Below are positions 1,378-29,503 of a stretch of 64,000 nt of DNA, piece after piece. A program made the translations under genes and the position numbers. A model generated the notes under the pieces. It ran no database searches. It saw only the letters and a program-made list of their open reading frames with translations, and had not been told where the DNA came from. Location of the stretch: the NCBI RefSeq assembly GCF_014126615.1, contig NZ_CP059897.1, positions 868,001 to 932,000 on the forward strand. Direction: 5' to 3'. This stretch comes from Ciceribacter thiooxidans. GTDB taxonomy: Bacteria > Pseudomonadota > Alphaproteobacteria > Rhizobiales > Rhizobiaceae. Position 1 is the stretch's first letter. The number at the start of each line of letters is the position of its first letter.

Positions 1378-3751
1378 CCTCGCCACGCTCAGATCTCGCG
1401 AGCTCGGCCCGGAGACCTTCATCCCCTACATCCGCCACGTCGACGAGTCGGCGATCGCGCTCGATTCCAGGGCGATGATGATGATGATTGCGCTCGAAGG
1501 CGTCTCATTCGAGACAGCCGACTTTCTCGATCTGAACGCGCTTCATTGCGACCTCAACACGCTCTACCGGAACATCGCGGACGAGCGGCTTGCCCTATGG
1601 ACCCATCTCATTCGCCGTCGGGACAGTGACTATCCCGATGGAACCTTCACGAGCACCTTTTCGGCCACGCTCGACGACAAGTACCGCGAGAGTATGGTCG
1701 GCCAGCATCTGTTCCGCAACGATCTCTACCTGACAGTCATTCTGTCCCCCGCCCAAGATCCGGCTGACAGGGCGGCGAAGCTGCTGTCGCGGCTATGGCA
1801 TGCCCGCCGCGCTCGTGCCGAACTGGACGAGGAAGCCCTGAAGCAGCTTCGGGACACAGTCGTCGACATCAAAACCGCGTTGAAGCGCTTCGAACCCAGG
1901 GTACTTTCCGTCTATGAGCGCGATGGCCTTCTATTCTCGGAGCCAAGCGAGGTGTTGCATCAACTCGTCGGCGGGCGGCGTGAGCCGATCCCGCTGACGG
2001 AGGGGCGTGTCGGTTCCGCGATCTATTCGGAACGTCTCATCTTCGGACGCGAGATAATCGAAATTCGCAGCGAGGCAGACAGCCGCTATGCCGGCATGCT
2101 GAGCTTCAAGGAATATCCAGCCCGCACTCGGGTGGGCATGCTGGACGGCGTGCTCACCGGTCCGTTCGAACTCATCCTGTCACAATCCTTCTCCTTCGTT
2201 TCGAAGGTCGACGCCCGGACCATTTTGGGCCGAAAGCAGAACCAAATGGTCAGCAGCGGTGACAAGGCTGCCTCCCAGATCGACGAACTCTACGAGGCTA
2301 TGGATGACCTGGAGTCCAACCGGTTCGTGCTAGGGGAGCATCACCTGACCCTCGCTGTCTTCGCCCCTTCTGTGAAGGAGCTTGTCGACAATCTTGCCAA
2401 GGCGCGCGCGGGCCTGACGAGCGGCGGCGCTATCGTCGCACGCGAGGATCTCGGCCTTGAGGCGGCCTGGTGGGCGCAACTGCCTGGCAATTTCCGCTAC
2501 CGTGCCCGCTCCGGCGCAATCACCTCACGGAATTTCGCCGCCTTGTCGCCCTTCCATTCCTATCCGACCGGGCAGAAAGATGGCAACGAGTGGGGTCCCG
2601 CCGTTGCGCTGCTCAAAACTGCATCCGGATCGCCATACTACTTCAATTTTCATTATAGTGATCTCGGCAACACCTTCCTCTGCGGGCCATCCGGAGCCGG
2701 CAAGACGGTGCTCCTCAACTTCATGCTGTCGCAACTCGGAAAGCACGATCCGCATGTGGTGTTCTTTGACAAGGACAGGGGTGCAGACCTCTTTGTGCGC
2801 GCCGCCGGCGGCACCTACCGACCCCTCAAGAACGGCATGCCAACCGGCTGCGCGCCTCTTAAGGCTCTTGAACTCACGCCGGCAAACAAGGTTTTCCTGA
2901 CACGTTGGGTCGGCAAGCTTGTCGGCTCGTCTTCCCGGGAACTCAGCGTCGGCGAACTCCGCGACATCGCCTCCGCGATCGAGGGCCTTTCCGATCTTCC
3001 GGTGGAGCGCCGCACGATCGGGGCGCTAAGGGCCTTCCTCAACAACACTGATCCCGAAGGCATTGCCGCGCGGCTGCGGCGGTGGGAAAGGGGAGGGCCC
3101 CTCGGCTGGGCCTTCGACAACGTCATCGAGGATATCGGTTTCGGCGAGTTTGGCATCGGCGGCAAGTTCGTCGGCTACGACATGACCGATTTTCTCGACA
3201 ACGAGGAAATCCGCACGCCCCTCATGGCCTATCTCTTCCATCGCGTCGAGCAGTTGATCGACGGCCGGCGGATTATCATCGTCATCGACGAGTTCTGGAA
3301 GACGCTCCAGGATGAAGGGTTTCGCGATCTCGCTGAGAACAAGCTCAAGACGATCCGCAAACAGAACGGTCTCATGCTGTTTGCCACGCAGAGCCCGCGC
3401 GATGCACTCGTTTCGCCAATCGCCCATACGATCATCGAGCAATGCCCGACGCAGATCTTTCTGCCGAACTCCCGCGGCAATCATGCCGACTATGTCGACG
3501 GATTCAATCTGACGGAACGCGAATACGAGCTGATCTCGCGCGAGCTCACCGTCGAGAGTCGCCGTTTCGTCCTCAAACAGGGACACAACAGCGTCGTCGC
3601 CGAACTGGATCTGAACGGCTTCGACGACGAACTCTCCATCCTCTCCGGCCGCACCGCCAATATCGAACTCGTCGACGACATCCGCGGCGAGGTCGGCGAC
3701 CATCCTGAGGATTGGCTGCCGGTCTTCCATGAACGAAGGAGTGCGAGTTGA
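1370..3751 (+). CDS. virB4: VirB4 ATPase of the type IV secretion system
   Basis: About 793 residues, normal for VirB4. It is the conserved ATPase at the cytoplasmic base of the channel. The N-terminal half is the CagE/TrbE/VirB4 domain. The C-terminal half has Walker A GPSGAGKT near residues 440-447 and Walker B IIIVIDEFW near 640. An in-frame ATG at 1349 would add 7 residues, but 1370 has a better upstream purine stretch (AAAGAGA). The stop overlaps virB5 by 4 bases. Confidence 0.92.
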   Translation: MPDLATLRSRELGPETFIPYIRHVDESAIALDSRAMMMMIALEGVSFETADFLDLNALHCDLNTLYRNIADERLALWTHLIRRRDSDYPDGTFTSTFSATLDDKYRESMVGQHLFRNDLYLTVILSPAQDPADRAAKLLSRLWHARRARAELDEEALKQLRDTVVDIKTALKRFEPRVLSVYERDGLLFSEPSEVLHQLVGGRREPIPLTEGRVGSAIYSERLIFGREIIEIRSEADSRYAGMLSFKEYPARTRVGMLDGVLTGPFELILSQSFSFVSKVDARTILGRKQNQMVSSGDKAASQIDELYEAMDDLESNRFVLGEHHLTLAVFAPSVKELVDNLAKARAGLTSGGAIVAREDLGLEAAWWAQLPGNFRYRARSGAITSRNFAALSPFHSYPTGQKDGNEWGPAVALLKTASGSPYYFNFHYSDLGNTFLCGPSGAGKTVLLNFMLSQLGKHDPHVVFFDKDRGADLFVRAAGGTYRPLKNGMPTGCAPLKALELTPANKVFLTRWVGKLVGSSSRELSVGELRDIASAIEGLSDLPVERRTIGALRAFLNNTDPEGIAARLRRWERGGPLGWAFDNVIEDIGFGEFGIGGKFVGYDMTDFLDNEEIRTPLMAYLFHRVEQLIDGRRIIIVIDEFWKTLQDEGFRDLAENKLKTIRKQNGLMLFATQSPRDALVSPIAHTIIEQCPTQIFLPNSRGNHADYVDGFNLTEREYELISRELTVESRRFVLKQGHNSVVAELDLNGFDDELSILSGRTANIELVDDIRGEVGDHPEDWLPVFHERRSAS

Positions 3752-5652: not shown

Positions 5653-5928
5653 ATGATCAGACCAGTCCTCCTGCTATCCATGGCGGTGATCTTGAGCGGT
5701 TGCGCATCGATGACCTATCCACTCCCCAAATGCGACGGGTATTCGCGTCGGCCGCTCAATCGATCGATGTGGGAGTGGGAGGATAATAGCAACGTCAAAC
5801 AGGAACACTCGAATGCGCCGCCGGCGAAGTCGCCGGCCATGGGCGCAGCCTATGTCGCGGAACGTAAGGAGAATCCAGCCTTCGCGCATCTCGACATCGC
5901 CACATCTTATCGTCCTTGTGAAGGATAG
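5653..5928 (+). CDS. virB7: VirB7-like outer-membrane lipoprotein
   Basis: 91 residues. VirB7 lipoproteins stabilise VirB9 in the outer-membrane core complex. A hydrophobic leader ends in a lipobox (LSGC, Cys about 17) and is followed by a soluble region containing LPKCDGYSRRPLN, also seen in rhizobial VirB7-type lipoproteins. An in-frame ATG at 5614 overlaps the virB6 stop, but AGAAGG just upstream supports 5653 and gives a proper signal peptide. Confidence 0.75.
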   Translation: MIRPVLLLSMAVILSGCASMTYPLPKCDGYSRRPLNRSMWEWEDNSNVKQEHSNAPPAKSPAMGAAYVAERKENPAFAHLDIATSYRPCEG

Positions 5929-5932
5929 CGCC

Positions 5933-6604
5933 ATGTTCTCGAGGGACGAGCTAAAGAGCTATTTCGACAAAGCACGCCGCTTCGATCAGGATCGCATGAT
6001 CCAGGTCGAGCGCTCGGCACGTATCGCCTGGTCCGTCGCAATCATGGCCGGCGTCCTCGCGGGAGCTTCGGTCCTTGCTGTCGCCGGTCTCACGCCGCTG
6101 AAGACGGTCGAACCGTTTGTTGTCCGCGTCGACAATTCGACGGGCATTGTCGACGTGGTATCGGCATTGACGTCGACCGCCGGTACCTATGATGAGGCGG
6201 TGACCAAATACTTCGCCGCCAAATATGTCCGCGCTCGCGAGGGCTATGTCTGGAGCGAATCCGAGGAGAACTTCCGCACGGTCGCCCTCTTGTCCACTCA
6301 GCCCGAGCAGACCCGGTTCTCCGTCTTCTACCGTGGCAGCAATCCGGAGTCGCCCCAGAATACCTACGGACGCGGCGCCACCGTGCGCGTCGGCATCGCT
6401 TCGATCTCGCTGATCAACCCGAATGTCGTCTCCGTCCGCTACATGCGCACGATCACCCGGGGCGATGACGTCCGCACGACTCACTGGGTTGCGACGCTCA
6501 CCTTTGCTTACGTGAATGCGCCGATGTCGTCGACCGACCGGCTTGTGAACCCTCTCGGCTTCGCCGTCAGCGAATACCGGGCCGATCCGGAGGCGATCAA
6601 CTGA
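5933..6604 (+). CDS. virB8: VirB8 assembly factor of the type IV secretion system
   Basis: 223 residues. VirB8 is a bitopic inner-membrane protein that nucleates assembly of the complex. The N-terminus is cytoplasmic, one membrane helix covers about residues 31-53, and a periplasmic domain of about 170 residues follows (TVEPFVVRVD, YVRAREGYVW). The ATG at 5933 is chosen because the open frame upstream would overlap virB7. It overlaps virB9 by one base (TGATG). Confidence 0.9.
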   Translation: MFSRDELKSYFDKARRFDQDRMIQVERSARIAWSVAIMAGVLAGASVLAVAGLTPLKTVEPFVVRVDNSTGIVDVVSALTSTAGTYDEAVTKYFAAKYVRAREGYVWSESEENFRTVALLSTQPEQTRFSVFYRGSNPESPQNTYGRGATVRVGIASISLINPNVVSVRYMRTITRGDDVRTTHWVATLTFAYVNAPMSSTDRLVNPLGFAVSEYRADPEAIN

Positions 6605-17185: not shown

Positions 17186-19251
17186 TGACATCCGATCCAT
17201 TGAACCGTGAACTCCGCCAGATGTTCGCCCAGGAGCTTGGCGAGCGCTCCTCCAGCATCGAAAATCTCGTGCTTGCGCTCGAGCGGGCAGATCGGCCCGC
17301 GACAAGTGAGGAACTCCAGCGACAACTCCTCAAGGCGGTCCACAGTCTCAAGGGAGCTGCAGGCCTCATGCAGGTTCGCCCTGTCGAGAACCTGTGCCAC
17401 GCCATGGAAGAGATCCTCTCGACGGCGCTCAAAGAAAGCAGAACGATTGACGCCCGCAAGCTTGATCTCTTTCTCGCGGCAACCGACAGGTTCCGCGAGG
17501 CCGCGGGATCGGTCGGCGATGCGGCGCCCGAAACCTCCGCTGAGGACCGTGAACTGCTCGAAGCAATGCACCGCGCGGTGCAGGCGGGCCACGGCGCGGG
17601 GGCTCGCACACATCGGCGGTCAACGAGGTTTCGTGCAGATGACTTGGATGGTTCCTTGCGAATAGCGGCCGAACGGCTGGATGCGCTCCTTTACCGAAGC
17701 GGTGAATTGCTCACCTTCAATCACATCTTGCGCCACCAGGTTGAAGCAGCCCTGGCTTTGAGAGAGCAAGCAAGCGCGGTTCGCGCATCGTCCGAACATG
17801 CGGGCGAAATCGCGGTCATCCAACGCGGCCTGCGTCAACTCGTCCGCTCGCTGCGGCAAAGCTCGCGCCAGGTTCAACGCGCCTCGACTGCCCTCGACCA
17901 GGAGGTTCGCGAGGCACGTACACTCCCGTTCTCCGAAGCCTGCCAGGGACTGAACCGCATCATCAGAGACGTTGCCGAGACCGCCGGCAAGTCGGCGGAA
18001 CTGGGGATATATGGCGGCGATATCCAGATCGATCGTGCGATCCTCTCGAGCCTGCGGGATGTACTGCGCCATCTGGTGCGAAACGCGATTGACCATGGCA
18101 TCGAACCTCCCAATGACCGCCGCAAGGCTGGAAAGCCGGAGGTGGGGAAGATCGCGATATCCGCCGCCGTGACCGGAGATCGCATCCGTGTCAGGGTCGA
18201 GGACGACGGGCGCGGATTCAACTTCCCGGATTCTCGAGAAGCGGCTCCCGGCAACAGCCCCGGTCCGGACTTCCTGCAGCAGGTATTTTCGCCGGGCTTC
18301 TCGACGTCGAAAACCGTCACGCGTTTGTCGGGCCGCGGCCTTGGTCTTGATATCGTCAAAACCGCGGTCGAGAGCCTGCGCGGGACGGTGGAGGTCTTGC
18401 AGGTCGAAGGGGGTGGAGCTGCGTTCATCCTGACCATCCCGCTCTCGGTATCCACTATCAGGATATTGCAGGTGAGCTGCGCCGACCACATCTTTGCAGT
18501 CGACACCGCATCGGTGCGGCAAGTGATCAGTATAGACCCGACGGCTGTTGCCGTATCGTCGGCAGTCGAAACGTCCGAGGGCGCAGTTCCGGTTGTCGAT
18601 TTGGCGCGCTGGCTGGGGATCGCCGGTGCCACGCGGCCACTCGCGATGCGGGCGGTCGTGATGGACCTCGCCGGCCGTCGGATTGCTGTTCTCGTTGACC
18701 AAATAGAGGGGGAACGAGAGCTCCTCATTCGAAAACTCGGCCCGCGACTGGCAGGATTCCGCCAGTATTGTGGTGCGATGAACCTGCCGGACGGGCGCAT
18801 CGCCCTGCTCTTGAACGCGGCCGCCCTTGTCGATGTCGCCCCCGAACCGTCGTCGCCCAAAGCCCCAATTCTTGGGGCGAAGCCGAAGCCGTCTCGGGTG
18901 CTCATTGTCGACGATTCCAATGCCGTTCGCTCGCTTCTCCGTATGATCACCGAGCGGGCCGGTTACGAAGTCGTTGTCGCAAGCAATGGCGCGGAAGCGC
19001 TGGAGCAACTGGCGCTACAGCGCGCCGACATCGTCGTTTCCGATATCGACATGCCCCAGATGGACGGCTTGCAGCTCGTAGAGACGATTCGACGATCCGA
19101 CCAGTTCGCCAGGTTGCCGGTCATCCTTGTCACGGGACGGGATTTCGATGACGCCGATCGCACGATCGTCGCCGGCGGTGCGAATGCCTGTTTGAGAAAA
19201 GACCGTTTTGACGCAGAAGAGTTCCTCGAAACCATGCGCCGGGTCGTCTGA
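17185..19251 (+). CDS. cheA: CheA histidine kinase with C-terminal receiver (hybrid CheA)
   Basis: About 688 residues. Order: Hpt domain with phosphorylated His about 53 in AVHSLKGAAG; a dimerisation/linker region; HATPase with N box LVRNAIDHGIEP, G1 DDGRGF and G2 SGRGLGLDIV; a CheW-like regulatory domain; and a receiver (about 570-685) with VDDS, DIDMPQMDG and a Lys. The P2 domain is short or absent. CheA hybrids of this type occur in non-flagellar chemosensory systems. GTG 17182 is an alternative start; both overlap the MCP stop. Confidence 0.92.
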   Translation: MTSDPLNRELRQMFAQELGERSSSIENLVLALERADRPATSEELQRQLLKAVHSLKGAAGLMQVRPVENLCHAMEEILSTALKESRTIDARKLDLFLAATDRFREAAGSVGDAAPETSAEDRELLEAMHRAVQAGHGAGARTHRRSTRFRADDLDGSLRIAAERLDALLYRSGELLTFNHILRHQVEAALALREQASAVRASSEHAGEIAVIQRGLRQLVRSLRQSSRQVQRASTALDQEVREARTLPFSEACQGLNRIIRDVAETAGKSAELGIYGGDIQIDRAILSSLRDVLRHLVRNAIDHGIEPPNDRRKAGKPEVGKIAISAAVTGDRIRVRVEDDGRGFNFPDSREAAPGNSPGPDFLQQVFSPGFSTSKTVTRLSGRGLGLDIVKTAVESLRGTVEVLQVEGGGAAFILTIPLSVSTIRILQVSCADHIFAVDTASVRQVISIDPTAVAVSSAVETSEGAVPVVDLARWLGIAGATRPLAMRAVVMDLAGRRIAVLVDQIEGERELLIRKLGPRLAGFRQYCGAMNLPDGRIALLLNAAALVDVAPEPSSPKAPILGAKPKPSRVLIVDDSNAVRSLLRMITERAGYEVVVASNGAEALEQLALQRADIVVSDIDMPQMDGLQLVETIRRSDQFARLPVILVTGRDFDDADRTIVAGGANACLRKDRFDAEEFLETMRRVV

Positions 19252-19258
19252 GGGCCTA

Positions 19259-20293
19259 ATGATCCGGCTGCTTCTCATCACGACCTCACCCGATCTTGCC
19301 GGCAGGACAGCGGCAGCGCTTCGCATGGACACGTCCATGACCCTCGTTGGGATCGCCCGGGACGGTGAACAGGCTTTGGCAATATCGAACGAACTTCGCC
19401 CGGATGTCGTTGCGATCGAACTCGAGCTTGCGGGCCACGACGGAGCTGATGCGATCAAGGAAATCATGATCGCGTCGCCAAGGCCTGTCGTCGCGATTGC
19501 CGGTCCCGGAGGGGGTGGGGCCGGGGCAATCTCGGACAAGGCACTCGAGGCGGGCGCACTTGCCGTCATCCCGGCACCCTTGCCGGACGATCATCCGTCG
19601 ATGGGCAAGTTCCTCTCGACGATTCGGGCGATGGCGCAGGTCATGGTCGTCCGCCAACGGCGACGCGAACGCAGGCACGGGCTCGAGGCCGAGCTGCCTG
19701 CGGGCAGGGCACGGTACGCTGCATCCGTCGTTGGAATAGCGGCCTCGACCGGGGGGCCAGCCGCGCTGCGCACCATTCTGACGGCACTTCCGGCAACGTT
19801 TCCCGCACCGGTTCTGGTCGTCCAACATATGTCGGACGGGTTCATCGAAGGCGTCGCCGCACGTCTCGATGCCACCGTTTCCCTCACGGTCAGGATCGCC
19901 GTCGACGGTGAGCGCTTGAGACCGGGCTTCGTCTATCTTGCACCCGACGGTCGCCAGCTCGGCCTCTCCGGAAAGACGCGCATACGCGTGACGGACGACG
20001 CGCCCGTCGGTGCATTCCGGCCCTCGGCGACGTATTTGTTCCGGGCCATGGCCGATTGCTTCAAGGAGGAAGCGCTTGCTGTCGTCCTGACCGGCATGGG
20101 TGATGACGGAATTGCGGGCCTTGGCGACATAAGGCGCCGCGGAGGTAGAATTATCGCCCAGGATGAGAATACGTCCACGGTATTCGGAATGCCGAAAGCA
20201 GCCATCCTTGCCGGTCTTGCGGATGATGTGCTTCCATTGGAGGCCATTGCCGACAAGTTGGTCTCTCTGGCAAGCAGGCCCGCCACCGGCTGA
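19259..20293 (+). CDS. cheB: CheB-type methylesterase with a degenerate receiver domain
   Basis: 344 residues. CheB removes methyl groups from receptor glutamates. The esterase domain (about 155-340) keeps the triad: Ser163 in AASTGGP, His190 in VVQHMSDGF and the Asp of GMGDDGIAG. The receiver (1-125) lacks the phosphorylation residues: the Asp pair is TT at 8-9, the phosphoacceptor is Glu54 and the conserved Lys is Ala106. The start at 19259 follows the cheA stop by 7 bases; the longer open frame would overlap cheA. It faces the Tad operon. Confidence 0.9.
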   Translation: MIRLLLITTSPDLAGRTAAALRMDTSMTLVGIARDGEQALAISNELRPDVVAIELELAGHDGADAIKEIMIASPRPVVAIAGPGGGGAGAISDKALEAGALAVIPAPLPDDHPSMGKFLSTIRAMAQVMVVRQRRRERRHGLEAELPAGRARYAASVVGIAASTGGPAALRTILTALPATFPAPVLVVQHMSDGFIEGVAARLDATVSLTVRIAVDGERLRPGFVYLAPDGRQLGLSGKTRIRVTDDAPVGAFRPSATYLFRAMADCFKEEALAVVLTGMGDDGIAGLGDIRRRGGRIIAQDENTSTVFGMPKAAILAGLADDVLPLEAIADKLVSLASRPATG

Positions 20294-20346: not shown

Positions 20347-21303
20347 TCAGATGTCCATTATCTGGATCACCGCCGGTGTGATGATGACGGCGAACAGGAC
20401 CGGCAGGAAGAACACGATCATCGGGACTGTCAACTTCGGCGGAAGGGAGGCTGCCTTCTTCTCCGCCTCGCTCATGCGCATGTCACGGTTTTCCTGAGCC
20501 ATGACCCGCAAAGCCTGTCCGAGCGGGGTCCCGTATTTTTCGGCCTGGATCAGACTGGTCACCACGGCCCGGACACCGTCGAGCCCTGTCCGCCGCGCAA
20601 GGTTTTCGTAAGCCTGGCGGCGGTCCTGCAGATAGGACAGCTCCGCGGTAGTCAGCATCATTTCTTCGGCGACCTCCGCCGACTGCACGGCGATTTCCTC
20701 ACCGACTTTGCGAAACGCACTTTCGATGCCCATGCCGGATTCGACCGTGATCAGCAGCAGGTCCAGAGCCTCGGGCCATGCGCGCCCGATCGCCTGCTGG
20801 CGCTTGGTGATCCGGTTCTTGACGTAGATCGTCGGCGCAAAGTAGCCGACGGCGCCCATGCCGGCTGCCATTGCCGCCATCAGCACCGGTGAAAGGTCTG
20901 GCCTCATGACCACGAAGAGATAGATCAAGCCCACAATGAAGATGACGAGCGGCGCCAGCAGACGAACGGCGAGGAAGGTCGTCACCGGCGCCTGACCGCG
21001 ATAACCGGCCATGTGTAGTCTTTCGACGAGTTCGCCGCTTTCGGCCTGCTTGGCGAGATTGAACCGATCGACGATCGCCGTGTAGAGCTTGCGGGGCTCC
21101 GCCCGAAGCGACGCGGGGCGCACTCTTGCGTTCAGGCGAGCGCGTTCCCGAACCCGGATACGCTCCCGTTCGCCTTCGATCCTGCGCATCCGCGCAGTGA
21201 GGTTGTCCGGAAAGACATATGGCCATGAAGCGGCGAGAACGGCCGCGAAGGCTGCGAACGCCGAAAGCGCGATTGTGAGGTGTTCGGGACTTGGAATGTT
21301 CAC
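20347..21303 (-). CDS. tadC: TadC pilus assembly membrane protein
   Basis: 318 residues. TadC is an inner-membrane platform protein of the GspF/T2SF family that works with TadB and the CpaF ATPase. A membrane helix at the N-terminus (about 10-30), a cytoplasmic T2SF domain (about 165-285, with ALDLLLITVESGMGIESAF) and hydrophobic segments near 115-150 and 290-315 are seen. It is the last gene of the Tad operon, 12 bases after tadB, and is convergent with cheB. Confidence 0.9.
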   Translation of the reverse strand: MNIPSPEHLTIALSAFAAFAAVLAASWPYVFPDNLTARMRRIEGERERIRVRERARLNARVRPASLRAEPRKLYTAIVDRFNLAKQAESGELVERLHMAGYRGQAPVTTFLAVRLLAPLVIFIVGLIYLFVVMRPDLSPVLMAAMAAGMGAVGYFAPTIYVKNRITKRQQAIGRAWPEALDLLLITVESGMGIESAFRKVGEEIAVQSAEVAEEMMLTTAELSYLQDRRQAYENLARRTGLDGVRAVVTSLIQAEKYGTPLGQALRVMAQENRDMRMSEAEKKAASLPPKLTVPMIVFFLPVLFAVIITPAVIQIMDI

Positions 21304-21315
21304 GGTCGACGGCCC

Positions 21316-22317
21316 TTAGAAGTCAAAGTTGATCATCTTGCGCATGACGAGGATTCCCATCGCCATCCAGAGGCCACAGCCCGCCAGCACGACCTTTCCC
21401 ACTGCCGTCGAAAACAGCAGTGACATGTAGTCCGGGCTGGTGAAGTAGACTGCTCCGGCGACGAAGATCGGCAGGAAGCCGATGATGCCGGCCGACGACT
21501 TGGCCTCGGCGCTCATCGCCTTGATCTTGGCCTTCATTTTCTTGCGATCTCGTAGCACTTTCGAGAGGTTTCCTAGCGCTTCGGAGAGACTGCCGCCGGT
21601 GCGTGACTGGATGGCGATGACGATCGCGAAAAAGCTCGCCTCCGGCAGCGGGACACGCTCGCGCATCCTCTGTACCGCCTCGTCCAGCGGAATGCCGAGG
21701 GTTTGGTCCTGAACAATCAGCAGGAACTCGCTTCTGACAGGCTCCTGCGCTTCCGACGCGATCACCCGAAGACAATCTGCCACCGGCAGTCCGGCCTTCA
21801 GACCCCGCACGACGACGTCCACGGCGTTCGGGAACTCAGCAGTAAAACGGTTAAGGCGCCGGTTCCGCTTCGCGTTGACGTAGAGGTGCGGCAGCATGAG
21901 CCCCCCCGTGACGGCAAACCCCGCCGCAGCCGGATGACCCGCCCCCAGTGATACCGCCACGACGTCGGTTGCGAGTGCGCAGGCGACCACAACAAGATAG
22001 TAGGTCTTGACGGACCACCGGAGGTCGGCCTGCGCCAGCCTGACCGGAAGAGCGACCTTGCCGGCCTTCTTCAGCTTGTTCTTCTGCTTGGCTTCCATTT
22101 CTCGCAGCGTCTTTTCGACAGATCGCCGGCGATCGTGGTCATCATCGGCAGCGCGCCCGTCGCTGGGACTGACGTCCGGCGTAGCCAACGCGGTGAACCG
22201 CCGGCGGTATGGGCTCAGCTTTGCTGCGCGTGGAAAAAAGACAGTCAGCAACACACCGCCTATGCTCGTCGCGGCAAGGATAAAGACGAGGACCGGCAGG
22301 AGAGATTGGGGAAGCAT
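21316..22317 (-). CDS. tadB: TadB pilus assembly membrane protein
   Basis: 333 residues. TadB is the paired inner-membrane platform protein of Tad pili. It has an N-terminal membrane helix (about 7-28), a charged linker rich in Asp/Arg/Lys (about 50-90), a pair of helices (about 105-145), the T2SF domain (about 165-290, VVVRGLKAGLPVADCLRV) and C-terminal helices. It lies between cpaF and tadC in the usual order. Confidence 0.9.
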   Translation of the reverse strand: MLPQSLLPVLVFILAATSIGGVLLTVFFPRAAKLSPYRRRFTALATPDVSPSDGRAADDDHDRRRSVEKTLREMEAKQKNKLKKAGKVALPVRLAQADLRWSVKTYYLVVVACALATDVVAVSLGAGHPAAAGFAVTGGLMLPHLYVNAKRNRRLNRFTAEFPNAVDVVVRGLKAGLPVADCLRVIASEAQEPVRSEFLLIVQDQTLGIPLDEAVQRMRERVPLPEASFFAIVIAIQSRTGGSLSEALGNLSKVLRDRKKMKAKIKAMSAEAKSSAGIIGFLPIFVAGAVYFTSPDYMSLLFSTAVGKVVLAGCGLWMAMGILVMRKMINFDF

Positions 22318-23873: not shown

Positions 23874-24053
23874 TTACGCGGTCGGGAAGTTCAGGGCGTT
23901 CGCGATTGCCTGGAAGGCGCCGTTCACGTCGGTGCCGACCAGGCCAACCGTCGTGATGATCGCGACAGCGATCAGGCCGGCAATCAGGCCGTATTCGATG
24001 GCAGTGGCGCCGGACTCGTTGCGAACGAAGCGTGCGAGAAGGTTCTTCATCAT
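23874..24053 (-). CDS. Flp-type pilin
   Basis: 59 residues. It is the major subunit of the Tad/Flp pilus. A short positively charged leader ends in RNESG, followed by ATAIEYGLIAGLIAVAI: cleavage after Gly15 leaves the conserved Glu at mature position +5 and Tyr at +6, the Flp motif. AAGGA lies 6 bases before the first of two tandem ATGs (24053 and 24050). Confidence 0.93.
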   Translation of the reverse strand: MMKNLLARFVRNESGATAIEYGLIAGLIAVAIITTVGLVGTDVNGAFQAIANALNFPTA

Positions 24054-24481: not shown

Positions 24482-24907
24482 TCAACCGATCGGGATACGG
24501 CGCGAGAGCCCAATCGTGATCGGCGTGTCGACCAGGTCCGGCAGGAGGAACGTGAACGGATACCGCAAGGTCAACACTCTGAAATCCGATCCGTTCACCG
24601 TTTCCCTCGCCGTCATGACCTGGAGCAGGGCAGGATCGCCGCTTCGGAAATTCGCCCGCACGGCATTGTCGAGCTTCGCCGTGGCATCCGTTTCCGATAG
24701 ATTCGGGCCGACCTGTCCGATCAGGACTTGGCGTGCCGCGACGTCTGCCGCATAGGACAAGTCGTTTTGCAGAAAGAATGCTCGCCCGAACTCCACAACG
24801 CCCAGTATCAGGAGAAACAGTGGCAGGCCGACCAGGGCGAACTCGACGGCCGTCGCGCCAGACTGGCATTGACGAACACGCCCGAGACGCGAACGAACGC
24901 TCGTCAT
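24482..24907 (-). CDS. TadE-like minor pseudopilin
   Basis: 141 residues. TadE proteins are pseudopilins processed by the prepilin peptidase and needed for Flp pilus assembly. The leader ends in CQSG, followed by ATAVEFALVGLPLFLLILGVV with Glu at +5, then a periplasmic domain. The start overlaps the stop of the CpaE fusion gene by ATGA, so the two are translationally coupled. Confidence 0.88.
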   Translation of the reverse strand: MTSVRSRLGRVRQCQSGATAVEFALVGLPLFLLILGVVEFGRAFFLQNDLSYAADVAARQVLIGQVGPNLSETDATAKLDNAVRANFRSGDPALLQVMTARETVNGSDFRVLTLRYPFTFLLPDLVDTPITIGLSRRIPIG

Positions 24908-26649
24908 TGCACCTGCACCTGCATCGAAGAGCTCAGCCGGAACGCGGGCAGGGCTTCAGGGAGCGACATTGGTTGATAGTCCTTGTGCGCCCGCATCCGA
25001 TAGTAGACGTATTGGGACGCCATGCCGGAGCAGGGCGTCCCGCAGGCGGGAGCTGTCTCTGGCGCCACGCCTGCGCTTTCCGGGCACGCGCAGTAACGAT
25101 GGACCGGGTCCAGGACCACGTTGCTGGCTTCGCCACTCCCTGCGAGCGTCGATTCCATCACCGCCAGCACCTTTGCCTCACCTGCATCGGACATCGCAGC
25201 CTGCGCCCCTGCACGGAGAACGTGATCCATTGCCATGCGTTGATGCAGGGCAAGCCCAATATCGGCCGTGGCGACCAGGCCGATCGCGAAAACCGGTGCG
25301 ATCAATGCGAATTCAACAGCCGAAACACCACTTTCCGAGGCCTTCAGCTTGTTGAAGTGCTGTGCCGGCGAAAGCCGGTCTCCCGTCGGTTTCTTGCCCT
25401 TCAAAAATCCGGAAAGCAGTCCTCGAAACACCGATTTCGGCTTCGTTCGCCGCTCCCTGGTTCCGCCGACCCGCCAGGCAAGGGATACCATGGCCTTCCC
25501 GGCCGCCGATTGCGGGGCTGTCTCGATGATCAGGCGACCGTCATTGGCTGCCTTTCCAAACAGTGGCACGTCGAGTGGCACCGCCACATGCTCGTCCAGG
25601 CCGACGGCGTCAGCAAAGTCCTTCGATTTGATTTCTCGGAGCTTCGGAGTCCCAATCCTGTTGAGAACCAGTCTCGGTGGCGGATCGTTCGGCCGGGCCT
25701 GCTTCAGGAAGCTGACCATGTGTTTGGCATTGCGCATGCTTGCGAGATCTGACGTCGCCGTGATGACGATCTCGTCTGCCTCCATAAGGATTTTCCGCGT
25801 CCATTCGGTCCACAGATAAGGCAGGTCGAGAACGACGTTCCAGGAGCTCGACCGTGCGACGTCGAGAAGGCGATCGACGTCGCTTTCCTTGAGCTTGACA
25901 GCTTTGCTGTAGTCGCCTGCAGCGGTGAGCAAATGCAGATGATCCGAGTACTGCACGGCGAGGCGTCGCAACAGTACGTCATCGAGCCGCTCCGTGCTCG
26001 CAAGCACCTCCGCCATTCCCTGTGGCGCATCGACATCGAAGTTCAGGCCGAGTGTTCCGGATTGCAGGTCGAGGTCGGCCAGCAGAACGTCGGCGCCTGT
26101 CCTGTTCGACATCGCCATCGCGACGTTATGGGCGATGGTGGATGATCCCGTACCTCCTTTGGTGCCGACGAAGGCAATGATGCGCCCGAGCTTCTCGCTG
26201 TCGGTATGGCGAAAGCAACGCTGGACTGCTGCAATCAACGCCATTGGATCAAGAGGCGAAAGCAGGTAGTCGCTCACGCCGGCGTCGAGCAATGTCTTGT
26301 AGAGGTCGATGTCGTTCGAACGGCCGACGATGATGACCTTCGTGCCGGTCACGCATTCCACGGCTAGGGCCTCCAGCGCCGCCATCAGGCTCGCTTGGCT
26401 GTCGTCGTTCTCGATCACGATCAGATTCGGGGACGTGACGCCGCCGTAGAGCGCAGTGGCTTCTCTGATCCCTCCGGGTTTTACCGTCAGTGTGACGCGT
26501 GCCATGCGGCGGTCGATCGCAGCTGTCTGGGCTGCAGCGGCAATGACGTCGGATGTGCAGAAAACGGCAATATCCACTTTCGGGATGGATAGTGCCGGAG
26601 AAGCAGCTACAGCCTGGATGGGCTTTGCTTCTTTGTCGAGCTGGTTCAT
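24904..26649 (-). CDS. cpaE: CpaE/TadZ ATPase fused to a TadE-like pseudopilin
   Basis: 581 residues. Residues 25-400 are CpaE/TadZ: a receiver-like N-terminal domain followed by a ParA/MinD-type ATPase with a deviant P-loop KGGTGSST (164-171), LLADLDLQSG and VLDLPYLW. This protein localises pilus assembly at the cell pole. Residues 436-581 are a TadE-like unit: ASESG then VSAVEFALIAPVF with Glu446 at +5 after Gly441, one membrane helix and a periplasmic Cys-containing domain. No start codon with a ribosome site was found at the junction, so this is one polypeptide as written. The ATG at 26649 is chosen for its AAGGAAGG site; a longer frame would overlap cpaB. Confidence 0.9.
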   Translation of the reverse strand: MNQLDKEAKPIQAVAASPALSIPKVDIAVFCTSDVIAAAAQTAAIDRRMARVTLTVKPGGIREATALYGGVTSPNLIVIENDDSQASLMAALEALAVECVTGTKVIIVGRSNDIDLYKTLLDAGVSDYLLSPLDPMALIAAVQRCFRHTDSEKLGRIIAFVGTKGGTGSSTIAHNVAMAMSNRTGADVLLADLDLQSGTLGLNFDVDAPQGMAEVLASTERLDDVLLRRLAVQYSDHLHLLTAAGDYSKAVKLKESDVDRLLDVARSSSWNVVLDLPYLWTEWTRKILMEADEIVITATSDLASMRNAKHMVSFLKQARPNDPPPRLVLNRIGTPKLREIKSKDFADAVGLDEHVAVPLDVPLFGKAANDGRLIIETAPQSAAGKAMVSLAWRVGGTRERRTKPKSVFRGLLSGFLKGKKPTGDRLSPAQHFNKLKASESGVSAVEFALIAPVFAIGLVATADIGLALHQRMAMDHVLRAGAQAAMSDAGEAKVLAVMESTLAGSGEASNVVLDPVHRYCACPESAGVAPETAPACGTPCSGMASQYVYYRMRAHKDYQPMSLPEALPAFRLSSSMQVQVQ

Positions 26650-26677: not shown

Positions 26678-27475
26678 TCAACTCCCGCTGGTGCCGGAGA
26701 GCGGCACCTGGACCACCATCTCGCGTCCACCAGCGAAGACCCGGACCACGCCTTGTTTCGTCTGCTCGCGCACCGACGCCGACACGTCGGTATTGTCGGT
26801 CGTCGAGCGCAAGGCGAGGGAAACGGTACCGGACGCCTCCGCCGCAGTGATGATCGCGATCTGCTCCGGTTTCACTTCGAGCGTCGCAGTTTTGCCGACG
26901 ACCGCCGCACCGCCTGCACCGTCCGAGGCAACCTGGTCGATCGCAAGCACCCTGACATTCGTCAGCAAGGTCCTGCTCGTGACCTTGCCGGCGGCTCCGG
27001 ATGCACCTGAACTGACGACAGTGTGGATGACGTCGACACGATCGTCCGGCAGAATGAACCCGCCGGCGGTGCTCTCTGCCGTGACGCGAACCGCGATCGC
27101 CCGCATTCCTCCCGGGAGCGAGCTGGAAAGGAAGCCGGCCCCTCGCTCGGAGAGCCTGTCACGCCGGATCGGTTCGCCCGTGACGAGGTCTCCGAGCGTG
27201 TGCCAGCCTTCATAAGACGCAGGCGCGTCAGGGACGTCGGCGCGGCTTATGAAGGCGGAAGGCACGTCGCCCTCCCACCGTTGCCAACGCAACGCGCCCT
27301 TCTCGACGACCGCTCCTCTTGCCATGTCGGACGCCGCGACCAGGACTTCCTTTGATGACGTCGGTGTGGTCGCAGTGACGATCGTGTCGGCGGGCTCCTC
27401 GGACGAGGCAGCCGCGAGCCATGCGGCAACACCGCCGGATGAGAGGGCGAGCACGAGTATGAGGATCCGTATCAT
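26678..27475 (-). CDS. cpaB: CpaB/RcpC pilus assembly protein
   Basis: 265 residues. CpaB proteins are periplasmic parts of the Tad system associated with the outer-membrane secretin. An N-terminal membrane anchor (about 3-22) is followed by a SAF-like domain (EVLVAASDMARGAVV near 44) and the RcpC region (MRAIAVRVTAESTAGGFILPDDRVDVIHT). It sits between cpaA and cpaE. The partner secretin CpaC, normally next to it, is missing from this window. Confidence 0.88.
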   Translation of the reverse strand: MIRILILVLALSSGGVAAWLAAASSEEPADTIVTATTPTSSKEVLVAASDMARGAVVEKGALRWQRWEGDVPSAFISRADVPDAPASYEGWHTLGDLVTGEPIRRDRLSERGAGFLSSSLPGGMRAIAVRVTAESTAGGFILPDDRVDVIHTVVSSGASGAAGKVTSRTLLTNVRVLAIDQVASDGAGGAAVVGKTATLEVKPEQIAIITAAEASGTVSLALRSTTDNTDVSASVREQTKQGVVRVFAGGREMVVQVPLSGTSGS

Positions 27476-27501: not shown

Positions 27502-28014
27502 CTACAGGACGGTGGCGTACCAGTGGCTTTGTGGAAGCAGAACGAGTGCTGCCAAGGCGAGCGCGACGCCGTAGGGCACGCCCATGTCGTCGTCATGAAG
27601 GCGTCGGAACCATGCTCTCGATACGAGTGACGTGGGCACGGAAATGCGCCGCAACGGAAGGACCAGCATGGTCAATGCTGCTCCGAACACGGACGCGTAG
27701 AGAGCGAACTCGAGCGCAAGACCGTGACCGAGCCAGAGGACTACGACGGGAGCAAGCTTGGCATCTCCGCCGCCGATCCATCCCATGGCGAAGAGGCCCA
27801 TCGTGCAGGCGAGGGCGGTTGTCGCCGCCAGAGCGCTCAGGAACGCGGTATCGACGCCGATACCAGTGGCAGGAGCGAGAACCAGGTAGGCAGCGAAGAG
27901 GACGATGACGAGACGGTTGGAGATCGTCATCGTTAGCACGTCCTTGATGCCCGCAAAGATTATCGTCCCTGCAAAGAGTAGAAGCGCAATCCACGCAAAG
28001 AGTGCCGAGAGCAT
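27502..28014 (-). CDS. cpaA: CpaA-type prepilin peptidase
   Basis: 170 residues. CpaA is a membrane aspartic protease of the GxGD type that cleaves Flp prepilin and pseudopilins. It has five or six hydrophobic helices. The two catalytic Asp residues are likely those in AGIKDVLTM and GWIGGGDAKL. The ATG at 28014 has AAAGG upstream; the longer frame to 28089 adds a polar stretch without a ribosome site. It is the first gene of the Tad operon. Confidence 0.88.
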   Translation of the reverse strand: MLSALFAWIALLLFAGTIIFAGIKDVLTMTISNRLVIVLFAAYLVLAPATGIGVDTAFLSALAATTALACTMGLFAMGWIGGGDAKLAPVVVLWLGHGLALEFALYASVFGAALTMLVLPLRRISVPTSLVSRAWFRRLHDDDMGVPYGVALALAALVLLPQSHWYATVL

Positions 28015-28216
28015 GTTCGTACCTTTCGGAGTACCGACCGTGACTTGGTGACGATGCACTATGTGCCCGCTTCTCGTCGTCCGCGCCATTCGGCCTGATG
28101 GACTAAGGGAGGACGGGCGATCAACGGTCTGGACTAGTCCGTCAGGTCGAATGGTCGTGGGCGCATCTTCTCGCGTATAGCGATACTAGAGCGAAACCAC
28201 AGGATGTGAGACGCAG

Positions 28217-29503
28217 ATGCGCCAGAAGTCACGACGGCATCTCCCGATACGCTACGCCCGCGGGTTCATGAGGCACTTTGTGCGAGATGATGCGGGCGCT
28301 GTGGCGGTCATCGCCGCCATTGTGTTTCCAGTCGTGGTTGGCGCGATGGGGCTGGGGGCCGAGACCGGCTATTGGTACTTCAAACAGCGCGAATTGCAGC
28401 ACGCGGCCGATGTCGCTGCCCATGCCGCGGCCATCCGCTACCGCGCGGGCGACGGACTTTCATCCCTCGGTGCTGCGGCGACGACCGTCGCTGTCGCCTC
28501 GGGCTTTGTGTCTTCTTCCGGCACGCTCAATGTCAGCACCGAAGCGGGGTCTGGGGCCGAAAAGGTCACTGTCGTCATCAGCGAGACGCATGCGCGGCTG
28601 TTTTCCTCCGTCTTCTCCAATGCCCCGGTCGTTTTCAGCGCCCGTGCGGTGGCACAGGTCACGGGGGGCTCGAAGGCCTGCGTCCTGGCGCTGTCGAATT
28701 CTGCCTCGGGTGCTGTCACTGTGACGGGTTCGACGGAAGTTCAGTTGTCCGGGTGCAGCGTCGTTTCGAACTCGACGGCCTCCGACGCCTTTCTGATGAA
28801 GAATGGCAGCGCGATGATGTCCACGGACTGCGTTTACACCGTAGGCGGTGCGATGACCACAAGCGGCCTTACCCTGTCGGGATGCGATGCGCCTGTCGAG
28901 CGTGTACCACCGACTGCCGACCCCTTCGCCTCGGTCGCCGAACCCGACGACATGCAGATCCAGCAGCTTCCTTGCCGAACGCTCGAGTATATCTCGAATT
29001 CCACCTACACGTTTGACCGATTCCCGTCGGGGGAGGAGGCCCTACGGTTCTGTGGTGGGCTGGACATCAAGGGAAACGTGACGCTGAAATCCGGGCTTTA
29101 CATTCTCGATGGAGGCGATTTCACCGTAACCGCCGGCGCCAACCTGTCCGGTAGCGGCGTGACCCTGCTGCTGGTCAACGGCGCGGCTGTGAAGCTGACC
29201 GGAAACGGAAACATCGACCTCTCGGCGCCGACGAGCGGGCCCTACGCAGGTCTCCTCTTCTTTGCTAGCCGCAGGACCACGGGTTTGGTCCATGAGATCA
29301 CCGGGAATACGGAGTCGACCTTTCAGGGCAACATATACATGCCGACCGGGCAGGTTGCGTTCACCGGCAACTCCTCGGTTTCGGGGGGATGCACGCAGAT
29401 CGTCGCCGATCAGGTGGTCTTCACCGGCAATTCCGCGATGGAAACTTGCGCCCTGTCGAGCGATGAAATCCTGGTCGGCCAGACGGTCGCGCTCATCGAA
29501 TAG
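28217..29503 (+). CDS. TadG-like protein with a repetitive C-terminal half
   Basis: 428 residues, divergent from the Tad operon. The N-terminal 150 residues match TadG/Tad-type proteins: a cytoplasmic basic tail, a membrane helix about 34-55 after DDAGAVAVIAAIVFPV, then a region rich in Ala. From about 145 on the sequence is Gly/Ser/Thr/Asn-rich with repeated short units of the type TGN-x(1-3)-hydrophobic (KLTGNGNIDL, EITGNTESTF, AFTGNSSVSG, VFTGNSAMET), suggestive of a parallel beta-helix. This is a probable pilus-associated or surface protein; its exact role is unknown. Confidence 0.8.
   Translation: MRQKSRRHLPIRYARGFMRHFVRDDAGAVAVIAAIVFPVVVGAMGLGAETGYWYFKQRELQHAADVAAHAAAIRYRAGDGLSSLGAAATTVAVASGFVSSSGTLNVSTEAGSGAEKVTVVISETHARLFSSVFSNAPVVFSARAVAQVTGGSKACVLALSNSASGAVTVTGSTEVQLSGCSVVSNSTASDAFLMKNGSAMMSTDCVYTVGGAMTTSGLTLSGCDAPVERVPPTADPFASVAEPDDMQIQQLPCRTLEYISNSTYTFDRFPSGEEALRFCGGLDIKGNVTLKSGLYILDGGDFTVTAGANLSGSGVTLLLVNGAAVKLTGNGNIDLSAPTSGPYAGLLFFASRRTTGLVHEITGNTESTFQGNIYMPTGQVAFTGNSSVSGGCTQIVADQVVFTGNSAMETCALSSDEILVGQTVALIE

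Follow-up and report, generated by a model that had tools for sequence, protein, structure and literature searches.

The locus described here raises the question of why two components of one pilus machine, a cytoplasmic ATPase and a pilin, should be encoded by a single gene, and whether they then act as one protein or as two. In the window, by which we mean the whole 64,000-nucleotide stretch of Ciceribacter thiooxidans DNA that was analysed, the minus-strand frame 26649..24904 runs for 581 codons without an internal stop, from an ATG at 26649, preceded (by eye) by the SD-like AAGGAAGG, to a TGA at 24904-24906, and comprises a complete CpaE/TadZ ATPase followed by a Tad minor pilin. The first-pass annotation had reported such a single frame with a separate TadE gene directly behind it; coordinates, domains and motif all proved to be as it described them, and the TadE start overlaps the fusion stop as ATGA. 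The gene sits among cpaB, cpaF, tadB and tadC, the tad/cpa context expected of CpaE/TadZ. The fusion gene, its parts and its neighbours are:

24904..26649, minus strand: cpaE2-type fusion gene, CpaE/TadZ ATPase plus minor pilin, 581 aa
26200..26589, minus strand: REC-like domain, residues 21-150; solved homologue 4MYR (S. meliloti CpaE2)
25465..26199, minus strand: ParA/MinD-type ATPase, residues 151-395; KGGTGSST replaces the classical Walker A
25330..25464, minus strand: basic CpaE C-terminal tail and former prepilin leader, residues 396-440
25327..25329, minus strand: Gly441, predicted prepilin-peptidase cut after it (G/VSAVEF, the slash marking the cut here and below)
24907..25326, minus strand: predicted mature minor pilin (CpaK/TadF-like), residues 442-581
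24482..24907, minus strand: TadE/CpaJ-like minor pilin, separate gene, its start overlapping the fusion stop
23874..24053, minus strand: Flp major pilin, 59 aa
22344..23774, minus strand: CpaF/TadA motor ATPase
21316..22317, minus strand: TadB/CpaG platform protein
20347..21303, minus strand: TadC/CpaH platform protein
26678..27475, minus strand: CpaB/RcpC
27502..28089, minus strand: CpaA prepilin peptidase, presumed cutter, with GGGD and KD motifs
28217..29503, plus strand: TadG-like protein with Tad domain, divergent

We take the GGGD and KD motifs of CpaA to be the Asp motifs expected of a prepilin peptidase. Position +5 of the pilin-like helix in the TadG-like protein (28217-29503) is, by eye, Ile and not Glu. 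The ORF at 19208-20293 beside the cluster looks CheB-like, again by eye; an annotated CheB also flanks an S. meliloti pSymA cluster. Elsewhere on the same replicon (G000:C2, about 1194150-1195492) a second secretin gene, possibly corresponding to pilQ2 of S. meliloti Locus 3, reads as two frames that overlap (370 aa and 167 aa; 760-1872 and 1599-2102 of L041), as if frameshifted by error or inactivation. The genome also has an uninterrupted secretin match at C1:3322732 and encodes an unfused CpaE at C1:3320501.

The N-terminal half of the fusion protein has the domain order of CpaE/TadZ, a REC-like domain and then a ParA/MinD-type ATPase with a deviant Walker A. Pfam places AAA_31 (ParA/MinD-type ATPase) at residues 156-318, and the Foldseek matches include 4MYR, confined to residues 24-149, 4N0P (both REC-like), MinD/ParA chains and 3FKQ, identified as TadZ in PMC10499894. 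At the junction, KASESG/VSAVEFALIAP, Gly441 stands in the prepilin-peptidase pattern G/xxxxEF, and a hydrophobic stretch follows the motif; PF07811 (TadE) matches residues 441-482 with 36.8 bits against a cut-off of 22.9, and residues 442-581 have the long alpha-1 helix, beta strands and conserved Cys. Ahead of Gly441, where an ordinary prepilin has a short leader, the full frame has 440 residues. AlphaFold2 modelled the whole fusion (mean pLDDT 74.5, pTM 0.45) as two domains, with the pilin helix from 444 and a stretch of pLDDT below 50 at 397-426 joining them. Modelled alone, the pilin part reached pLDDT 90, with a long helix and three strands, and it had no match in the PDB with E below 0.001, so no significant solved counterpart there.

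That a sequencing or assembly error had deleted a stop between two genes was named beforehand as a possible refutation. The comparison of homologues, which the first-pass annotation had put forward as a check on its proposal, finds the fusion in 16 clusters and in 51 of the 120 homologues listed (of 1410 matches), among them S. meliloti pSymA CpaE2 (SMa1573) and three proteins whose frames are disrupted elsewhere (P0030, P0048, P0051); 68 are unfused CpaE, and P0050 stops short of the junction. A tblastn search of plasmids matched 80% or more of the query at a single site in 72 records; 40 of these are listed, all of them from Sinorhizobium, and pSymA of strain 1021 is one. The 80 genome loci comprise 14 that are fused (13 Sinorhizobium/Ensifer, 1 Chelativorans), seven with cpaE directly before an unfused pilin, seven with cpaE at another place in the locus, and 52 without a CpaE match; both pSymA loci are fused. 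The 16 fused clusters (L037, L038 and L046-L059, being the 14 genome loci and the two pSymA plasmids) share one gene order. With the same junction in 50 other listed proteins, and the fused frame in 16 records and in the genomes G196 and G104, an error is rejected for the main clade, and we give it next to no chance as the source of the fusion; the one case for which it is still conceivable is P0067, from a single contig. The fusion is a real, conserved, variant arrangement of known parts.

Its distribution is rare and patchy. Among the matches listed, in order of E-value, the junction is spanned in three of 199 genomes drawn evenly from the family of the window genome, and in none of 35 other genomes of the same genus. 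Within the fusion clade, identity to the window protein goes as low as 53%. The search of genome contigs recovered relatives with alignment A2 as the query; with the single window protein as the query it found none.

The fusion would have arisen through loss of the stop between adjoining cpaE and pilin genes. Stand-alone relatives of the pilin (P0123-P0129, 52-56% identical, with P0124 of Mesorhizobium at 54%) have ordinary leaders that end in a motif of the same type. Seven loci, from Microvirga/Aurantimonas (L060-L063), Microvirga (L071), Palleronia (L072) and Nioella (L084), have cpaE directly upstream of an unfused pilin, which in L060-L063 is 42-46% identical to the fused unit. In L061 and L062, which are of one genus, and in L063 the two genes are in frame, a single stop keeping them apart (about 5895-6040, 2961-3106 and 5880-6022, respectively; Aurantimonas and Microvirga VF16); readthrough at that single stop might yield a fusion in these three also. 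In the fusion, the basic tail with which unfused CpaE ends can still be made out by eye ahead of the former leader. Separate genes in relatives, which the first-pass annotation had set against its reading, are thus a fact of the neighbouring lineages, but the fusion stands and they point instead to its origin.

In a 90-row CpaE tree, to which 13 loci were added and from which P0003-P0006, P0050, P0051 and 37 of the 68 listed unfused proteins were left out, 45 fusions form one clade with support 100, the unfused P0053 coming next. P0067 is fused but lies outside this clade (AU p 5.8e-5, on a 70-row subset leaving out 19 fusions and L084). This 575 aa protein from one metagenome contig, with the junction SDERG/LSAVEF, is apparently a second, independent CpaE-pilin fusion, but it may be an error, since it comes from a single contig and the relative closest to it in the list, P0185 (77%), is an unfused protein. 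A 100-row pilin tree (leaving out 23 near-copy fusions, P0030 and P0048 with their broken C-termini, P0184, and P0051, P0131 and P0179, where no motif was found) groups the fusions with P0123-P0129. Two stand-alone pilins, P0121 and P0122, nest inside its fused clade, perhaps as a result of gene fission or of a frameshift in the assembly; the AU p of 1.4e-5 obtained here comes from a test that such nested stand-alone rows make unclean.

The fused pilin had been called a TadE-like pseudopilin, which holds as far as it is a PF07811 minor pilin, but it is nearer to a CpaK-like than to a CpaJ/TadE-like paralogue. In hhalign comparisons with the minor pilins that this genome encodes on its chromosome, the fused unit matched the CpaK-like one with E 8.5e-7 and the CpaJ-like one with 1.3e-3, over 44 helix columns only; the separate TadE matched the CpaJ-like one with E 2.8e-9 and the CpaK-like one with 6e-7. 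The labels CpaJ and CpaK (L005 and L004) follow the S. meliloti table in PMC10934763 and the gene order with respect to the Flp pilin. Each of the 16 fused clusters has a single CpaK-type match, and it is the fused unit. By the hhalign results the fused pilin appears to be of CpaK/TadF type rather than another TadE, and as a CpaK/TadF counterpart it would be the partner of the TadE that follows rather than its duplicate.

The S. meliloti pSymA flp-2 cluster carries the same gene and the same fusion, CpaE2/SMa1573 (66.6% identical; H12/L038; PMC10934763; 4MYR), in the cpaA-cpaB-cpaE-TadE order of the window. CpaE2 is described in PMC10934763 as a putative docking protein, the word 'fusion' having no occurrence in the main text, and flp-2 is said there to be without a cpaK homologue, with no impediment expected. 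This reportedly missing homologue appears to be hidden inside CpaE2. An flp-1 mutant of S. meliloti is still piliated according to the same source, but smc04118 (cpaK) is absent from the list of deleted genes given there, so flp-2 pili in the delta-flp-1 strain are no proof of a working fused pilin.

The first-pass annotation had left two fates for the product, a polyprotein cut by CpaA or a CpaE tethered to the membrane, and the polyprotein is the better supported of the two. We put the probability that the fusion is a polyprotein cut by CpaA, whether the coupling is useful or not, at a little under 60%, the cut itself being inferred from sequence. The second-replicon Tad cluster, of flp-2 type, would make CpaE and a CpaK/TadF-type minor pilin as one chain, whose pilin helix would enter the inner membrane while the entire CpaE stayed in the cytoplasm, in the usual position of a leader. 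CpaA, encoded two genes upstream, would cut after Gly441 and leave CpaE with its own basic C-terminal tail and some 24 residues of the old leader; the freed mature minor pilin would join TadE and TadG and prime the pilus tip. Prepilin leaders are cytoplasmic, variable in length and cut at the membrane (PMC10191384), so a CpaE ahead of the pilin is topologically possible, though this leader, 440 residues long and including a folded ATPase, differs from those discussed in that source.

The cut site proposed at the junction by the first-pass annotation, G/xxxxEF at Gly441, is intact and also conserved. All 51 of the listed fusions have Gly ahead of an SA.EF-type motif, any letter having been allowed there, and the 45 of them in alignment A1 all keep Gly-1, Ala+3, Glu+5, Phe+6, Ala+7, Ala+10 and Pro+11. 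Mean identity among these 45 is 49% over residues 401-416 and 52% over 417-440, against 78-80% in the CpaE domains and 86% from +1 to +25. Pooled over 18 genes (153 pairs, uncorrected for multiple hits), pN/pS is 0.25 for CpaE, 0.48 for the tail and linker, 0.13 for alpha-1 and 0.34 for the rest of the pilin; the pilin part is under purifying selection. The invariance of Gly-1 and Glu+5 despite a drifting linker, together with CpaA in the same run of genes and short leaders in unfused relatives, is why we favour the polyprotein over a tether. Invariant Gly-1 could have another cause, such as a helix break; TadG was dropped as an uncut control for this residue because TadG/CpaL may itself be processed (PMC12607857).

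Were the protein left uncut, the pilin helix would be a permanent anchor holding CpaE at the pilus base, its periplasmic pilin docked on the platform and outside the filament. The topology permits this, the low-confidence and probably flexible stretch 397-426 would join the halves, and CpaE is believed to associate with the inner membrane by a C-terminal amphipathic helix (PMC13170226). An anchor of this kind would work without Gly-1 or Glu+5, yet all 45 aligned fusions keep both residues; ahead of the leader the basic CpaE tail is retained (by eye), and the cluster would be left without a free CpaK-type pilin. We consider it quite improbable.

Whether a cut polyprotein would be of use to the cell is a separate matter. 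In Caulobacter six CpaE dimers have been fitted round the CpaF motor, with CpaJ, CpaK and CpaL modelled at the base before extension (PMC13170226), and deletion of cpaJ or cpaK abolishes pili (PMC12607857). These are the component families of the window, with CpaJ, CpaK and CpaL modelled at base and tip, but CpaE and CpaK are named in these sources as separate proteins. With CpaE ringed round CpaF and CpaJ/K/L at the base, the fusion would link neighbours in the machine, and both halves would be delivered to one site, the pilin acting at the tip. The fuller proposal, that the peptidase processes a polyprotein whose leader is an ATPase, that CpaE brings the tip subunit to the motor and that the cut arms the first pilus, is less likely than not. 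The loss of the stop may instead have been tolerated because CpaA cuts anyway, with no gain in delivery or stoichiometry. This has on its side the three relatives with adjoining genes and one in-frame stop and the small number of fused genomes (the three of 199 in the family, among the matches listed); against that, the clade has retained the fusion down to the 53% identity given above, and in the pilin tree just two stand-alone rows, those possible fissions or assembly frameshifts, nest inside it. A neutral history strikes us as rather unlikely. It shares the cleavage with the polyprotein explanation and denies the benefit only, and so the odds of the two overlap and do not sum to one.

The pilin might also, or only, be made from an in-frame start about 29 codons before Gly441, the CpaE-pilin form then being a by-product or minor; stand-alone relatives of the pilin begin in this zone. 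A scan of 16 fused genes found in-frame starts in every one, and no position common to all 16. At aligned residues 411-412, TTG, GTG or ATG occurs in 14 of 18 fused genes, a count reached by 23 of 540 two-column windows, although the related Sinorhizobium rows do not count as independent and a conserved Met may lie in some of those 23. Of the 17 Leu codons in column 411, 9 are TTG, the highest share in any of 67 Leu columns (overall TTG 8%). At 411-412 the mean SD energy is -4.7 (null mean -2.7), resembling the real ATG starts before TadE (+0.3 to -5.9), but of 38 candidate starts just 5 score better than the null 5th percentile, -7.0. Nor is a 9-column window out of the ordinary (15 of 18 genes, with 123 of 540 windows as high), and synonymous change in the linker is not lowered (pS 0.646). 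The window gene, L053, L126 and L127 are without a start codon at 411-412; the nearest in the window gene is a TTG at 416, and L053 has only a GTG at -5. At 25414-25419 (residues 411-412) the window gene has CTG where Sinorhizobium fusions favour TTG, as if a weak start were kept. The 14 of 18 make internal translation a stronger rival than the first scan implied, and a free pilin from the same frame in Sinorhizobium might well exist, but as the explanation of the fusion we judge it distinctly unlikely. Such a start, if used, would give an ordinary leader of about 29 residues with the same Gly cut and would break the equal amounts of CpaE and pilin that the first-pass annotation expected of a polyprotein; cutting of the long form would still be compatible with it.

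Among known systems, TadE/TadF pseudopilins cut by TadV (Tomich 2006, cited in PMC10934763) share the G/xxxxEF motif and pilin helix but are separate proteins, whereas the window pilin has 440 ATPase-bearing residues before its site. The Mesorhizobium (P0124) and Aurantimonas/Microvirga pilins are homologous to the fused unit but unfused. In the tad-2 cluster of Micrococcus luteus, TadB-TadC (PMC4322843) likewise places two Tad components in one frame, but it joins platform proteins, and the account of it in that paper describes no prepilin site between them. The titles and abstract openings listed from the open-licence literature yielded no CpaE-pilin fusion and no prepilin with a comparable N-terminal domain.

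The polyprotein explanation concerns certain nitrogen-fixing soil bacteria and bacteria related to them, in which the ATPase, a protein that positions the pilus machinery, is carried in one chain with a pilin subunit thought to start the pilus, and the intact cutting site between the halves suggests that one cut would release both parts. In S. meliloti flp-2 the fused unit could be the minor pilin that was reported to be absent. The fusion gives a natural physical link from CpaE to the tip-initiation complex, and raises the question whether a prepilin peptidase can cope with a large folded domain at the N-terminus of its substrate.
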